From Opitutia bacterium (GTDB taxonomy: Bacteria > Verrucomicrobiota > Verrucomicrobiia > Opitutales > Opitutaceae), in NCBI GenBank assembly GCA_016199925.1, contig JACQFT010000005.1, forward strand, positions 1 to 54,587: DNA of 54,587 nt, written 5' to 3'. Positions 6,534 to 52,759 of this stretch are shown in pieces. The notes under the pieces were generated by a model. It saw only the letters and a list, made by a program, of their open reading frames with translations, ran no database searches and had not been told where the DNA came from. The translations under genes were made by a program, and so were the position numbers. Position 1 is the stretch's first letter. Each line of letters begins with the position of its first letter.

Positions 6534-6742
6534 CCGGGCAGCGCACTCCAAAGCCACCCCGCGCGCAAGCCTCCCCGCGTCTTTTTTCGTGCGCGCCCCC
6601 AACCGCCGAGCCCACCGCGGCAGCCCGCCAGTGTCATTTAATAGGTGACACTTTCTGCGGGGCTGACGTTCACCTTTAGCGGCCGGTCTCCGGCGAATAC
6701 TCCCTCGACGCCTCGCGCGGGGAGTCCTTAGATGCGCGGGAC

Positions 6743-44806: not shown

Positions 44807-47440
44807 ATGCCCCGCCCCGCCCGGCCCCGCTGCCCCCGCCTGCTCGCCGCCGGCTTCCTCGCTTTCGCGTCGCTCGCCTCCGCCGCCGACCTTCCGCCGG
44901 CCGGCCCGGTGCCGCAGCAACTCCGCAGCTTCGGCACGACCGGCGGCGTCCTCTACGTCGCCGCCCATCCCGACGATGAGAACACCGAACTCATCACCTG
45001 GCTCTCGCGCGGTCTCGGCTACCGCACCGCCTACCTCTCGCTCACGCGCGGCGACGGCGGCCAGAACGAACTCGGCCGCGACTTCGACGAGAAACTCGGC
45101 GTCGCCCGCACGCAGGAACTGCTCGCCGCGCGCCGGCTCGACGGCGGCCGCCAGTTTTTCACCCGCGCCATCGACTTCGGCTACTCCAAATCCCCCGAGG
45201 AGACGCTCCGCTTCTGGGATCGCGACGCCGTGCTCGGCGACGTCGTGCGCGTCATCCGCCAGTTCCGCCCCGACGTCATCGTCACGCGTTTCCCCGTGCC
45301 GCCCGGCAGCGGCGGCCACGGCCACCACACCGCCTCCGCCATACTCGCCGTCGAGGCGTTCCGGCTCGCCGGCGATCCCGCCGCTTATCCCGAGCAACTC
45401 GCGCAAGGTCTCGCCGTGTGGTCGCCGCACCGCATCGTCTGGAACGCCTACGCCGGCCGCGGCGGCACCGCCCTGAGCGGCCCCACCGTGCAGACCGACA
45501 TCGCCGGCACCGACGCCGTGACCGGCGAAACCTACGGCACCATCGCCAATCGCAGCCGCGGCATGCACAAGACGCAGGGCCTCGGTTTCTTTGCCAACCA
45601 GACCGCCACCGGCCCCAATCTCCAGAGCTTCGTCCTCCTCGCCGGCGCGCCGTTCGCCAGCGCCACCGACCCGGCCGCCAGCAACGGTGCGCCTTTGCCG
45701 GGCGGTCTGGCCCGGACAATCGCCTCGGCGCAGGCCGTTGGACGATCCCTGGGAGGCCAGCAGGCGGCAACAGGGCACACCGGGCTGGCAGCAGCCAGCA
45801 ACGGTGCGCCTACTTTCATGGCCGGCGTCGATGTGACTTGGAACCGCCTTGCCGGTGGCGCGGAGATCGGCCGACTCGCCGCCGCCGCCCTCGCGCAATT
45901 CCAGCCCGCCGACCCCGCCGCCTCCGTGCCCGCCCTGCTCGCACTCCGCGCGCAACTCGCCGCCCTCCCCGCCGATCCGCTCGTCGCCGACAAACGCGCG
46001 CAACTCGACCGCATCCTCCAAGCCTGCCTCGGCCTGCGCGTCGAGACCACCGTCGCCCATGCCGAGGTCGTGCCCGGCGAACCGCTCAAGTTCGTCTTCA
46101 CCTATGCCGTCGCGGCGACGCCCGCCGGCGTGCGCTATGTCGAATCGCGCAGCCCCGCCTTGAAGCTGACCGCCGGCCCGTCCGGCGAACTCACCGGCGT
46201 GCTCCCGCCCGACACTCCGCTCACCCAGCCCTACTGGCTCCGCGCCGACGGCGCCGCCGGCCTCGCGCGCGTTGACGATCCCACCCTCATCGGCCGCGCC
46301 GAGAATCCGCCGCCTGTTCCGCTCGAGCACGTCTTCGCGCTCGGCAACCAAACCCTCGTCGTCGCCGACGAGCCCGTGCAACTCGTCGCCGGTGTGACCG
46401 CGGCCCAGGCCCGCCGCCGCCTCGCCGTGATCCCGCCCGTGTCGCTGCAATTCAACTCGGAGATTTTTCTCGTCGCCCCGGGCGCCACCAAGCCCGTCAC
46501 AGTCGAAGTCACCTCCGCCCGCGCGCAGACGCACGGCACCCTGCGCCTCGCCGCGCCCGCCGGCTGGAAAGTCGCGCCTGCCGCGGCGGACTTCCGCCTC
46601 GCCCACGTCGGCGACACGGTGCGCGTCACGTTCGACCTCACTTCAACCGCGCTGCCCTCTGCCGGCCGCGTGACCGCGGTCGCCGACGTCGAGGGCCGCC
46701 GCTATTCCAACCAGCGCCACGAAATCCGCTACGACCATCTGCCGGTCCAGCTCCTCCAGCCACCGGCCCGCGCCCGCGTGGCGAGCTTTGCCCTCGCGAC
46801 CCGCGGGAAAACCGTCGGCTACCTCCCCGGCGCCGGCGACTACGTGGCCGAGTGTCTCGCCCAGATGGGCTACACCGTCCGCCCGCTCACGGGCGCCGAC
46901 CTCACGCCGGAAAAACTCCGCGGCCTCGACGCCGTCGTCATCGGCGTGCGCGCCTTCAACGAGCGCCCCGACCTCAAGGAAAATTTTCCCGGCCTCCTCG
47001 CGTGGGTCGAGGCCGGCGGCACCGTCATCGCGCAATACAACCGGCCCAACGGCCTCAAGGCCACCCAGCTCGGGCCGTATCCGCTCTCCATCGACGGCCC
47101 GGCGCCCGCGCTGCGCGGCACCGACGAACACTCGCCCGTCGCCTTTCTTGCCCCCGACCACGCCGCGCTCAACACGCCGAACAAGATCGGGCCCGCCGAT
47201 TTCGACGGCTGGGTGCAGGAGCGCGGCGCCTATTTCCCGAGCAAGTGGGACGAGGCGCACTACACCGCCTTGCTCGCGCTGAACGATCCCGGCGAGGCTC
47301 CGCTCGTGAGCGGCCTCCTCGTCGCAAAACACGGCCGGGGTTACTACGTCTATACCGGCCTCGGCTTTTTCCGCCAGTTGCCCGCCGGCGTCCCCGGCGC
47401 CTACCGCCTCTTCGCCAACCTCCTCGCCCTCGGCAAGTGA
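44807..47440 (+). CDS. large secreted PIG-L/LmbE-family deacetylase
   Basis: An 877-aa exported protein with a signal peptide (RLLAAGFLAFASLASA). The PIG-L domain has the zinc motif AAHPDDEN and HGHHTAS in place of the usual HxxH, typical of de-N-acetylases acting on GlcNAc-type sugars. A central Ig-like/NEW3-type region follows (SLQFNSEIFLVAPGATKPVTVEVT and GTLRLAAPAGWKV). A C-terminal glutaminase-like fold comes last (VGYLPGAGDYVAECLAQMGYTV and LDAVVIGVRAFN). This long form is commonly followed by an SSS transporter in Bacteroidetes-type neighbourhoods, as here. A 117-base in-frame insertion bounded by 17-bp direct repeats lies at 45678-45811. The start ATG 44807 was chosen by the signal peptide. 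Confidence 0.88.
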   Translation: MPRPARPRCPRLLAAGFLAFASLASAADLPPAGPVPQQLRSFGTTGGVLYVAAHPDDENTELITWLSRGLGYRTAYLSLTRGDGGQNELGRDFDEKLGVARTQELLAARRLDGGRQFFTRAIDFGYSKSPEETLRFWDRDAVLGDVVRVIRQFRPDVIVTRFPVPPGSGGHGHHTASAILAVEAFRLAGDPAAYPEQLAQGLAVWSPHRIVWNAYAGRGGTALSGPTVQTDIAGTDAVTGETYGTIANRSRGMHKTQGLGFFANQTATGPNLQSFVLLAGAPFASATDPAASNGAPLPGGLARTIASAQAVGRSLGGQQAATGHTGLAAASNGAPTFMAGVDVTWNRLAGGAEIGRLAAAALAQFQPADPAASVPALLALRAQLAALPADPLVADKRAQLDRILQACLGLRVETTVAHAEVVPGEPLKFVFTYAVAATPAGVRYVESRSPALKLTAGPSGELTGVLPPDTPLTQPYWLRADGAAGLARVDDPTLIGRAENPPPVPLEHVFALGNQTLVVADEPVQLVAGVTAAQARRRLAVIPPVSLQFNSEIFLVAPGATKPVTVEVTSARAQTHGTLRLAAPAGWKVAPAAADFRLAHVGDTVRVTFDLTSTALPSAGRVTAVADVEGRRYSNQRHEIRYDHLPVQLLQPPARARVASFALATRGKTVGYLPGAGDYVAECLAQMGYTVRPLTGADLTPEKLRGLDAVVIGVRAFNERPDLKENFPGLLAWVEAGGTVIAQYNRPNGLKATQLGPYPLSIDGPAPALRGTDEHSPVAFLAPDHAALNTPNKIGPADFDGWVQERGAYFPSKWDEAHYTALLALNDPGEAPLVSGLLVAKHGRGYYVYTGLGFFRQLPAGVPGAYRLFANLLALGK
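45678..45811. repeat. in-frame insertion bounded by 17-bp direct repeats inside the PIG-L gene
   Basis: ccagcaacggtgcgcct occurs at 45678-45694 and again at 45795-45811, exactly 117 bases (39 codons) apart. The enclosed DNA is translated as a low-complexity segment (GGLARTIASAQAVGRSLGG). Without it the protein would read DPAASNGAPTFMAGVDVTW, as expected for the family. Confidence 0.75.
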
Positions 47441-49482: not shown

Positions 49483-49575
49483 TGGAGGGATTCTGCTGGC
49501 CAGCAGAATGTCGTCCGTCTTTTCGCAATCCGCGGACCGGACGGAGCCGGTCCCTCCACCCCGACCAAGCCGGAG
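49483..49575. repeat. family D palindrome and inverted arms in the spacer
   Basis: ttctgctggccagcagaat (49489-49508) and ggaccggacggagccggtcc follow the transporter gene. The first recurs near 30727. The remaining spacer (49417-49681) includes further short palindromes (ctccggggtctcgg) and no gene. Confidence 0.5.
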
Positions 49576-49681
49576 CTCGCTCCGGGGTCTCGGACCCACT
49601 CCGAATGAAGCCGCTCGTTTCGCGAACTCTTCGGTCTTGTCCGCGAGCATCCGTGCCATCCGCGGGAAAACTCCGTCCCTG

Positions 49682-50455
49682 ATGCCCTCCCCCGTCATCT
49701 GCTTCGGCCAGCAACCCTGCGGCTTTTTTCCGCGGCGGTTCCTCTACGCCAAATTCGTCACCGCCCGCCGCCTCCAGGCGGAACTCGGCGGCGAGATCGT
49801 CTTCTTCTTTCACGACAGCGACCACGACAGCCGCGAGACGCAGACCACGCTCCGCCATCGCCAGACCGATGAGCCGACGACGCTCAACTTTACCTTCGTC
49901 AACAAGCTCCAGCGGAAATTTTCCCCGCTCTTCCTCAAGCGCATCCCGCCCGACTGGCCGGCGAACACCGCGCGCCAGCTCCCCGCCTACGTCGATCCGC
50001 GCTGGGTCGCCGCCTTCAAACAAACCGCCGCGACCAACACCGCCGACTTCTGTCTCGAAATGTATCGCCGCATGGGCCTGCTCGACGGCGTCCGCGTCGT
50101 CCGCTCCGGCGATCCCGCCGTGCGCACCGCCGCGTGCGCCATCACCGACTGCTTTGTTGACGTGCCCCACCAGGGCGAAATTGTCCGCGCCCGCCTCCTC
50201 GACGGCGCGTTGAAACTCCACGAAGGCGGCAGCTCCTACCTCACCCTGCCCCCGGCCGACTACGGCCCGGCCCAGATCAGCCCGACCCGCGACAGCCGGT
50301 TGCGCTGGATGCAATCCGTGCTTCACTGCACGCACTACATCGCCGGCGCCGGCGAACAAGCCTACCTCAACCCCGCCGACGCCCCCGACATCACCTTCGT
50401 CCCCCGCGACCCCATCGACCGCTCCGATGAAGCCTACACCGACCTCCCAGCCTGA
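49682..50455 (+). CDS. short BshC-like protein (putative bacillithiol cysteine ligase-like fold)
   Basis: A 257-aa soluble protein. The N-terminus VICFGQQPCGFFPRRFLYAKFVTARRLQAELGGEIVFFFHDSDHDSRET resembles the opening of BshC ('GQQPGLFGGPLYTLYKA...FW...EDHDFEE'), with GQQP at residues 9-12 and HDSDHD at 44-49. BshC proper is about 530-540 aa, so this is about half length, ending near the first Rossmann part plus a distinct C-terminal stretch (YGPAQISPTRDSRLRWMQSVLHCTHYI). The following genes are bshB and bshA, which supports a role in adding cysteine to GlcN-malate. This is recognition by eye; it could instead be a paralogue with another function. Confidence 0.65.
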   Translation: MPSPVICFGQQPCGFFPRRFLYAKFVTARRLQAELGGEIVFFFHDSDHDSRETQTTLRHRQTDEPTTLNFTFVNKLQRKFSPLFLKRIPPDWPANTARQLPAYVDPRWVAAFKQTAATNTADFCLEMYRRMGLLDGVRVVRSGDPAVRTAACAITDCFVDVPHQGEIVRARLLDGALKLHEGGSSYLTLPPADYGPAQISPTRDSRLRWMQSVLHCTHYIAGAGEQAYLNPADAPDITFVPRDPIDRSDEAYTDLPA

Positions 50456-50470
50456 CACCCCCCGCCAGCG

Positions 50471-50497
50471 CGGTTGTAATACATTATATTACAACCG
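50471..50497. promoter_or_regulatory. 27-bp AT-rich palindrome, copy 1
   Basis: cggttgtaat ... attacaaccg around acattat: 10-bp perfect outer arms, with the whole core palindromic except for one position. It is strongly AT-rich in GC-rich DNA. It may be a repressor operator or a repeat element. Confidence 0.75.
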
Positions 50498-50620
50498 CCC
50501 GCCGACGCCTGTTTCACGGCGGCGCCGTAGGCGGGGCGCAGGTTCGCTGCGCCCTTTGGCGCCGGCGCACCAAGGCGCGCCCCTCCTGGCTCCGCCCCGC
50601 CCGCCTCGCCACCCCAAGCC

Positions 50621-50647
50621 CGTTTGTAATATATTATATTACAACCG
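50621..50647. promoter_or_regulatory. 27-bp AT-rich palindrome, copy 2
   Basis: cgtttgtaat ... attacaaccg around atattat. The inner 21 bases (ttgtaatata-t-tatattacaa) are a perfect palindrome. It lies exactly 150 bases from copy 1 in the same orientation and upstream of bshB. Confidence 0.75.
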
Positions 50648-50784: not shown

Positions 50785-51510
50785 ATGAACCTTCCTGATC
50801 CTCCCCCGCCTCTCCTCGCCTTTGGCGCGCATCCTGACGACCTCGAATTCGGGTGCGGCGGCGTCCTCGCCCGCGAATCGCGCGCCGGCCGCCCCGTGCA
50901 TCTCGTCGTCTGCTCGCGCGGCGAAGCCGGCTCGAACGGCACCCCCGCCCTCCGCACCCGCGAGGCGAAGCACGCCGCCGCCGCGCTCGGCGCGACGGTG
51001 GAGTTCATCAAGCTCGACGGCGACGCGCACCTCGAAATCCGCGCCGCGCACGCGCTCAAACTCGCCCGCCTCATCCGCCAGCACCGCCCGCACGCCGTGC
51101 TCGCGCCCAGCCTCGTCGAGAACCAGCACCCCGATCACTGGCGGCTCGGCCAGCTCGTGCGCGACGCCACACGCCTCGCGCGCTACGGCGGCTTGCGGGA
51201 ACTCAAACGCCGGCCGCCGCACGCCGTCGGCCAATTGTTTTTCTACGCCGTCTCGCCCGACGCCGAGCCGCGCGACACCTTGCCCGTGCTGATCGACATC
51301 GCCGCACCCGACATCGTCGCCGCGTGGACGGCGGCGATGGAGGCGCACGCCTCGCAGTTGCAGACGCGCAACTACGTCGAGTTCCAGCTCGCCCGGGCCC
51401 GCGTCAACGGGATGCGCGCCGGCCTCGCCTGCGCCCAAGCCCTCTGGCCGAATGATCCGCTCGTGTTCGACTCGCTCGCCGCGATGGCCCGCAGCGCGCG
51501 GAGATTTTGA
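50785..51510 (+). CDS. bshB1: bacillithiol biosynthesis deacetylase BshB (PIG-L family)
   Basis: A 241-aa zinc-dependent deacetylase removing acetate from GlcNAc-malate. It has AHPDD at residues 15-19, then GGVLARESRAGRPVHLVVCSRGEAGSNGTP-RTREA (the BshB1-type GEAGSNGT...R-x-x-EA), VLAPSLVENQHPDHWRLG (third zinc ligand His), and the late segment QTRNYVEFQLARARVNG. The size and these motifs match BshB1 rather than MshB. It is preceded by the BshC-like gene and followed by bshA, all on the same strand. Confidence 0.9.
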   Translation: MNLPDPPPPLLAFGAHPDDLEFGCGGVLARESRAGRPVHLVVCSRGEAGSNGTPALRTREAKHAAAALGATVEFIKLDGDAHLEIRAAHALKLARLIRQHRPHAVLAPSLVENQHPDHWRLGQLVRDATRLARYGGLRELKRRPPHAVGQLFFYAVSPDAEPRDTLPVLIDIAAPDIVAAWTAAMEAHASQLQTRNYVEFQLARARVNGMRAGLACAQALWPNDPLVFDSLAAMARSARRF

Positions 51511-51540: not shown

Positions 51541-51599
51541 GTAGGAGCGGCTTTACGCCGCGATGAGTGTCCTGATCGCGGCATAAAGCCGCTCCTACA
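51541..51599. repeat. family B palindromic repeat between bshB and bshA
   Basis: gtaggagcggctttacgccg ... cggcataaagccgctcctac, a near-perfect 59-base palindrome. It is the free copy of the element inserted in hrpA at 3306-3365. A diverged half (gtgggagcgaccttggtcgc) occurs at 52811-52830. Confidence 0.85.
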
Positions 51600-51619
51600 A
51601 TCAGATCACGCCCCCACCC

Positions 51620-52759
51620 ATGCCTGACCGCCCGCTCAAGATCGGCATCACCTGCTACCCGTCCGTCGGCGGCAGCGGCATCCTCGCGTCGGAACTCGGC
51701 GAGGAACTGGCGGCACGCGGCCACGAGATTCATTTCATCAGCTCCGAGCCGCCGTTCCGGATGCCGGCCGGCCACCCGCGCGTCTTCTTCCACCCGGTCG
51801 TGGTCAACAGCTACAATCTTTTCACGTAGCCCGACTACACGCTGCCGCTCTCGGTGAAGATGGCCGAGGTCAGCCGCGACTACGGGCTCGATGTGCTGCA
51901 CGTCCACTACGCCGTGCCGCACGCGACCGCCGCGTTTCTCGCCCGCTCGATGCTGCACCAGGAGCACCGGCTGAAAATCATCACCACGCTGCACGGCACC
52001 GACACCACGCTGCTCGGCCGCGATCCCGGCTACGGCCCGGCCATCGCGCACGCGCTGGAAAATTCCGACGCCATCACCACCGTCTCGGCGTTCATGCGCC
52101 GGGAAACGGGCCGGCTCCTCGGCGTCAAACGGCCGATCGAGGTCATCCACAATTTCTACGAGCCCCACCCGCCGGGCCGCACCCGCGCCGAGGTCCGCCA
52201 CGAACTCGGCCTCGCCGACGGCGAGGCGCTGATCCTCCACCTCTCGAATCTCCGCGCGCTGAAGCGCATCGACCTCCTGCTTGCCACCGTCGCGGCCATC
52301 CGCCCGCGCGAGTCGTTCAAGCTCGTCATCCTCGCCGGCGATTCCTTCGCGCCGTTCCGCGCGGAAGTCGAGCGCCTCGGGCTCGCCGGCCGCGTCGTCG
52401 TGCGCGAGCGAGTGAACGACATCGACGACTACCTGAACGCGGCCGACCTCGGGCTGTTCACCTCCGAGGTGGAAAGTTTCTGCCTGAGCATCCTCGAGCT
52501 GATGAGCATCGGCGTGCCGAGCGTGGCGTTCGCGGTCGGCGGGATTCCGGAGGTGGTGGTCTCGGGCGAGAGCGGGGTGCTCGTGCCGTTCGGCGACCCG
52601 GCGGCGCTGACGCGCGCGGTCGAATCGCTCATCGCCGAGCCCGCGCGCCGGGCGGCGCTCGGCCGCGCCGCGCAACAACGGGCGCGCGCGCATTTCTCCG
52701 CCGCCGTGATCGTGCCGCGCTACGAGGCGCTGTATCGCCGCGTCTGCGCGGGCAAGTAA
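51620..52759 (+). pseudogene. bshA: BshA (N-acetyl-alpha-D-glucosaminyl L-malate synthase) with one in-frame amber codon
   Basis: A GT4 glycosyltransferase of 379 codons making GlcNAc-malate from UDP-GlcNAc and malate, the first bacillithiol step. The frame is continuous from ATG 51620 ([21 protein letters not shown]) except for a TAG at 51827-51829 after YNLFT. It goes on in the same frame as PDYTLPLSVKMAEVSRDYGLDVLHVHYAVPHA, matching the usual BshA order. The core GT motifs follow: TTLHGTDTTLLG, VSAFMRRET, EVESFCLSILELMSIGVPSVAF. A single C-to-G change from TAC (Tyr) would explain the stop. TAG is an ordinary terminator in this genome (deoA, the CPXCG gene), so recoding is unlikely. Either a recent mutation or a base error. 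Confidence 0.85.

Follow-up and report, generated by a model that had tools for sequence, protein, structure and literature searches.

Dispersed REP-like palindromes of the Opitutaceae and a small helix-turn-helix protein as their probable partner

Two nearly identical AT-rich palindromes stand 150 bp apart, in the same orientation, ahead of a BshB1-like gene, and the question they raise is whether they serve that gene or belong to something larger. The window analysed here, a stretch of 54,587 nucleotides from an Opitutia bacterium of the family Opitutaceae, carries them, just as the original prediction described, at 50474-50494 (TTGTAATACATTATATTACAA) and 50624-50644 (TTGTAATATATTATATTACAA), with no strand assigned to either. 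The 21-bp sequences differ at a single base, both their centres and their starts are 150 bp apart, and 100 shuffles put the number of such window palindromes expected by chance at 0. In the first copy complementary flanks stretch the palindrome to 50470-50498, giving 12-bp arms (50470-50481 and 50487-50498, gcgg...ccgc); the second has 10 of 10 base pairs intact and 13-bp arms (92%). The copies are direct repeats with 86% identity over 42 nt (start-to-start 150), and the GC-rich 129-bp spacer that separates them (50495-50623) showed no repeat within the 328 kb of genome searched. The window contains one more palindrome of the wider family, at about 6631-6651 (TGTCACCTATTAAATGACA at 6632-6650). 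Downstream of the pair come the BshB1-like PIG-L deacetylase gene (50785-51510), whose best match, TIGR04001 at 126.5 bits, does not reach the cut-off of 182.5, and then bshA (51548-52759; TIGR03999, 277.6 bits, above cut-off). The pair had been placed between BshC-like and bshB genes; the second neighbour holds as BshB1-like, but the first is not confirmed, since the upstream ORF (49508-50455) has no match in Pfam or NCBIfam.

The palindromes recur throughout the window's 3.79-Mb, 89%-complete genome. Exact matches to the TTGTAATACATTATATTACAA 21-mer or its T9 variant occur at eight places, the strict AT-rich form about 27 times, and the general form TGTNANNNATTNNNTNACA at 111 sites, against none in the reversed control. 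Only 26 of 178 sites (15%) fall inside called genes, though 78% of the sequence is coding. Most sites lie between unrelated genes, for example ahead of a hisB-like gene (L029) or in the nadA-nadC gap, and many follow shortly 3' of stop codons; a search for a common neighbour gene at about 120 loci found no family at more than six. Among the 100 sites listed, the window's pair is the only one with 150-bp spacing, the commonest spacing being 48 bp (12 times, with opposed centres), followed by a second set at 43-44 bp. The flanks past the core are often complementary as well (0.68 at the first flanking base, where 0.34 is expected, falling with distance), and may have arisen by quasipalindrome template switching (PMC7202029, PMC8794818). 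In several copies elsewhere the complementary arms are long and unique.

The 48-bp spacing marks a discrete unit. The CACG subfamily includes 13 inverted doublets with this spacing, sharing a 69-bp unit in which identity is 0.97-0.98 in the palindromes and 0.83 in the 27-nt spacer, against 0.33-0.38 in the 40-bp flanks. Such discrete doublets with a conserved spacer indicate copying, as do asymmetric variants multiplied in single genomes (TGTCACGTATTAAGTGACA versus its mirror form in G042) and rare in another. An inverted palindrome doublet with a conserved spacer is also the layout of REPINs (PMC3116915). The window's own AT-rich subfamily is mostly single, with a core identity of 0.83 and flanks of 0.34-0.37. 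The original alternative of a small mobile unit survives in part: the palindromes belong to a repeat family that appears to spread, but no evidence points to mobility of the 123 bp that the window's pair encloses. The genomes compared were one per species, and orthologous sites without a palindrome were no closer than about 68-76% identity, a divergence too great for defining the ends of a unit.

The family is confined almost entirely to one lineage. In a scan of 84,980 genomes with TTGTCACSTATTASGTGACAA, the matches listed were virtually all from Opitutaceae/Opitutae or unplaced Verrucomicrobia, the single exception being in Hymenobacter. Stem bases vary between and within genomes while complementarity is largely kept, giving CACG, CACC, CAAC, AACG, AATA, CATC and other types. 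The nadA-nadC gap illustrates this variation: it holds TTGTAACACATTATATTACAA in the window's genome, a CAAC type in G024, a CACG type in one group of named bins and a CACC type in another, and has no palindrome in G004, G019 and G015. At one locus (L109, 1313-1648) seven palindromes form a tandem array in which TTGT and ATGT/GTGT types alternate regularly.

Clustering of the ORFs near the palindromes detected a candidate partner, a protein of some 120 residues, HTH-like in its C-terminal part (the PRQRVHEFL region) and encoded between or beside palindromes. It matches no family above noise in PADLOC, PHROGs or NCBIfam, and its Pfam matches to PF15943 (YdaS_toxin) and HTH_3 are both below cut-off. 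A PDB sequence search gave a single weak HTH match (E 1.3). The helix pattern fits a lambda-repressor-like HTH fold; the predicted structure is too low in confidence (mean pLDDT 65) to fix the fold, and its matches to XRE chains have low VIA Z values of up to 4.3. No nuclease, transposase or other catalytic domain was recognised in the protein, and no relative was found on viral contigs. Of 25 family genomes, 10 carry the gene; site numbers are 7-111 in these and 0-20 in the rest (Mann-Whitney p 4e-5), and gene and site counts rise together (Spearman 0.82). All 8 genomes of G021's genus have the gene. G040 and G041 each hold the gene against expectation, with one search-form site apiece. Most of their gene copies are bracketed by other palindromes, invisible to the search form, and the density of cognate sites is low, with 0 in a 192-kb sample of G041 and about 4 in 381 kb of G040; the HTH gene therefore predicts the palindrome that belongs to it, though not in every genome a high copy number. 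In G017 (94% complete) there are 20 sites and no HTH gene was detected, and the cognate gene likewise went undetected for some subfamilies, for example GTGTCAC...ATATGACAC in the window's genome and the CACG type in G021.

Bracketing of the gene was assessed by searching for palindromes of any sequence type, with GC-rich simple matches discarded from both gene and random sets. A palindrome is close to 34 of the 37 HTH genes and flanks both sides of 24, compared with 8.1% and 0.2% of random intervals. In most cases an upstream palindrome sits near the start codon, and others come directly after the stop; for two genes, L316 and L330, the surroundings show no convincing palindrome. The sequence flanking the HTH gene at L311 (G004) includes a perfect 43-bp palindrome, CCTCCAGGCTAGTTTCACGTAATACGTGAAACTAGCCTGGAGG.

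The palindrome version and the HTH gene that it brackets appear, from the comparison of their sequences, to have co-evolved. In 36 protein-palindrome pairs, distances between palindromes rise with those between recognition helices (r 0.57). When the rest of the protein is controlled for, a partial Mantel test, which removes only part of the kinship between proteins and palindromes, gives r 0.535 (0 of 5000 permutations), and the reverse partial is 0.08. His at helix column 6 accompanies C at arm position 4 in 17 of 18 cases versus 3 of 18 (p 4e-6), and Asp or Glu at column 7 accompanies C at position 6 in 26 of 28 versus 2 of 8 (p 4e-4), both p values counting related genes as independent. Whole helices recur with their palindromes too: HRARIGE(Y/F)F is paired with ATGTTCGTATTACGAACAT in three genomes, PKQRVTDFV with AGTAACCTATTAGGTTACT in two genomes and DRQ(Q/A)V(N/H)AYF with GTCAACTATTAGTTGAC in two genera. 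Next to a tRNA-dihydrouridine synthase-like gene (named from sequence), which the HTH gene adjoins in 8 genomes with differing helices, the palindromes, where found, differ in step with those helices.

Five paralogues share the window's genome (G000). Those on contig 159 (2127-2513) and contig 258 (34211-34579; L043, L318) go with AATA/AACA palindromes of the window's type, the former having TTGTAATATATTGTATTACAA as its own upstream palindrome and the latter an in-frame TAG, so that it may be a decaying copy. The paralogue on contig 135 goes with AACG palindromes, that on contig 250 with CACCTATTAAGTG, and that on contig 89 with the CACG type (TTGTCACG), being bracketed by two doublets. At this last locus (L405; contig 89:30400-31700) the 69-bp doublets on the two sides of the HTH gene are complete. 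Because of the shared AATA/AACA palindrome type, the window's two copies (TTGTAATA type) match the contig-159 protein and are predicted to be its targets; any effect on bshB would be incidental. The original expectation of a DNA-binding protein for the pair is thus half borne out: a dedicated one very probably exists, but not as a redox or thiol repressor.

We consider it probable that these are REP-like dispersed palindromes of the Opitutaceae, each subfamily being the predicted site of a small HTH protein whose gene is bracketed by the same palindrome. The protein would bind its palindromes as a symmetric dimer arranged in a Cro/XRE-like way, with the residues at helix columns 6 and 7 presumably recognising arm bases 4 and 6. 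Palindromes, single or as inverted doublets, would be copied round the genome as small discrete units, and new specificities would emerge once gene and palindrome change together. A more tentative idea, towards which we lean slightly against rather than for, is that a protein free of catalytic domains sustains and spreads its own palindromes, as a selfish or domesticated system, perhaps via hairpins extruded in replication or via a recruited host enzyme, while recognition helix and palindrome change jointly across the family. On the main reading, a non-transposase DNA-binding protein would stand where known REP systems have a tyrosine transposase; some known REP families have no known partner. 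The more than 30 natural protein-palindrome pairs offer a readable recognition code, and with it a test of how specificity can shift jointly in a protein and in its genomic sites, which number from tens to more than 100. The literature yielded no paper on Opitutaceae palindromes or on an HTH partner of REPs, aside from a REP report for Opitutus terrae.

The alternative that survives best, although we think it unlikely, is that the HTH protein is a global regulator or a nucleoid-associated protein, its palindromes kept by selection on expression or chromosome structure and not spread. The palindrome just upstream of most HTH genes is consistent with autoregulation; the nadA-nadC palindrome persists in several genera with a lineage-specific stem, as if sites tracked a changing specificity; and the gene's place beside the tRNA-dihydrouridine synthase-like gene is kept while helices and palindromes differ. 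However, the sites have no target genes in common and form no regulon of functionally related genes, and they are sparser where the neighbouring genes diverge (0.76 per kb) than where they converge (1.05 per kb). Palindromes also stand directly 3' of the HTH gene stop, and some copies are inside genes. The 69-bp doublets with their conserved spacer, and asymmetric variants abundant in one genome and rare in another, argue further for copying. XRE/Cro-type repressors (C.Esp1396I, HipB, HigA, YdaS-like) do resemble the system, weakly in HTH sequence and model, and in having a palindromic operator beside their own gene, binding here being predicted. Unlike theirs, the palindromes here flank both sides of the gene and have tens to more than 100 dispersed copies, and no second gene, be it a toxin, a methylase or another common neighbour, accompanies all HTH copies.

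REP-like dispersal by the HTH-associated palindromes has its closest known parallel in REP/REPIN elements with their RAYT (TnpA-REP) proteins in Pseudomonas, E. coli and Stenotrophomonas (PMC3116915, PMC3733652, PMC8266576). Both systems have tens to hundreds of short extragenic palindromes, inverted doublets with a conserved spacer (here in the CACG subfamily), a dedicated protein gene lying between palindromes of its own type, co-evolution of the two, and lineage-restricted subfamilies. These hallmarks of REPs (PMC3116915, PMC3733652), and the report that Opitutus terrae is rich in GTAG REPs, could suggest classical elements moved by RAYT tyrosine transposases, a reading that we find very improbable. 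Site counts show no relation to Y1_Tnp copy number (Spearman -0.05), two genomes rich in sites (G018 with 40, G024 with 57) have no Y1_Tnp match, and none of 7 Y1_Tnp loci examined (2.1-3.3 kb each) contains a palindrome; a RAYT partner was accordingly rejected for want of adjacency and correlation in the own genome and 38 relatives. Neither a GTAG nor a CGTC tetranucleotide tag is found at the palindrome ends when the flanks of 26 sites from the window's genome and of 147 others are compared. The Opitutaceae repeat is instead a near-perfect palindrome matched to a DNA-binding helix, and where REPs have an HUH tyrosine transposase it is paired with a small HTH protein. The system works like REP/RAYT, yet it has neither the tag nor the transposase. 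CGTC-tagged REPs, which reportedly have no dedicated transposase (PMC3733652), are alike in being dispersed palindromes without an associated tyrosine transposase, but the Opitutaceae repeats have a dedicated partner gene and no CGTC tag.

Equally improbable is that the palindromes act as transcription terminators or RNA hairpins. The many copies soon after stop codons and the complementary flanks beyond the core would suit such a role, but no U tract after the stem is seen in the flank composition, the loop has no strand preference relative to transcription (39 sense, 43 antisense), and the sequence is matched to a DNA-binding helix.

The original prediction of a bsh-specific operator pair, looping DNA for a redox-responsive repressor, had the pair's position upstream of the BshB1-like gene and its 150-bp spacing in its favour, but it is hardly credible now, because dozens of copies lie at unrelated intergenic places, an outcome that the prediction itself had named as its refutation, that spacing is unique to the pair among the 100 sites listed, and no neighbour family is widely shared. 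A bacillithiol- or thiol-responsive operator was also rejected, the sites not being confined to thiol or redox genes.

Two minor features of the bsh region deserve mention. A second, larger PIG-L-domain protein is encoded upstream of bshB (44807-47440), with a sodium:solute symporter gene in between. The bshA reading frame is read through one in-frame TAG (NLFT*PDYT), which is a nonsense mutation or an assembly error, because TAG serves as a normal stop here.
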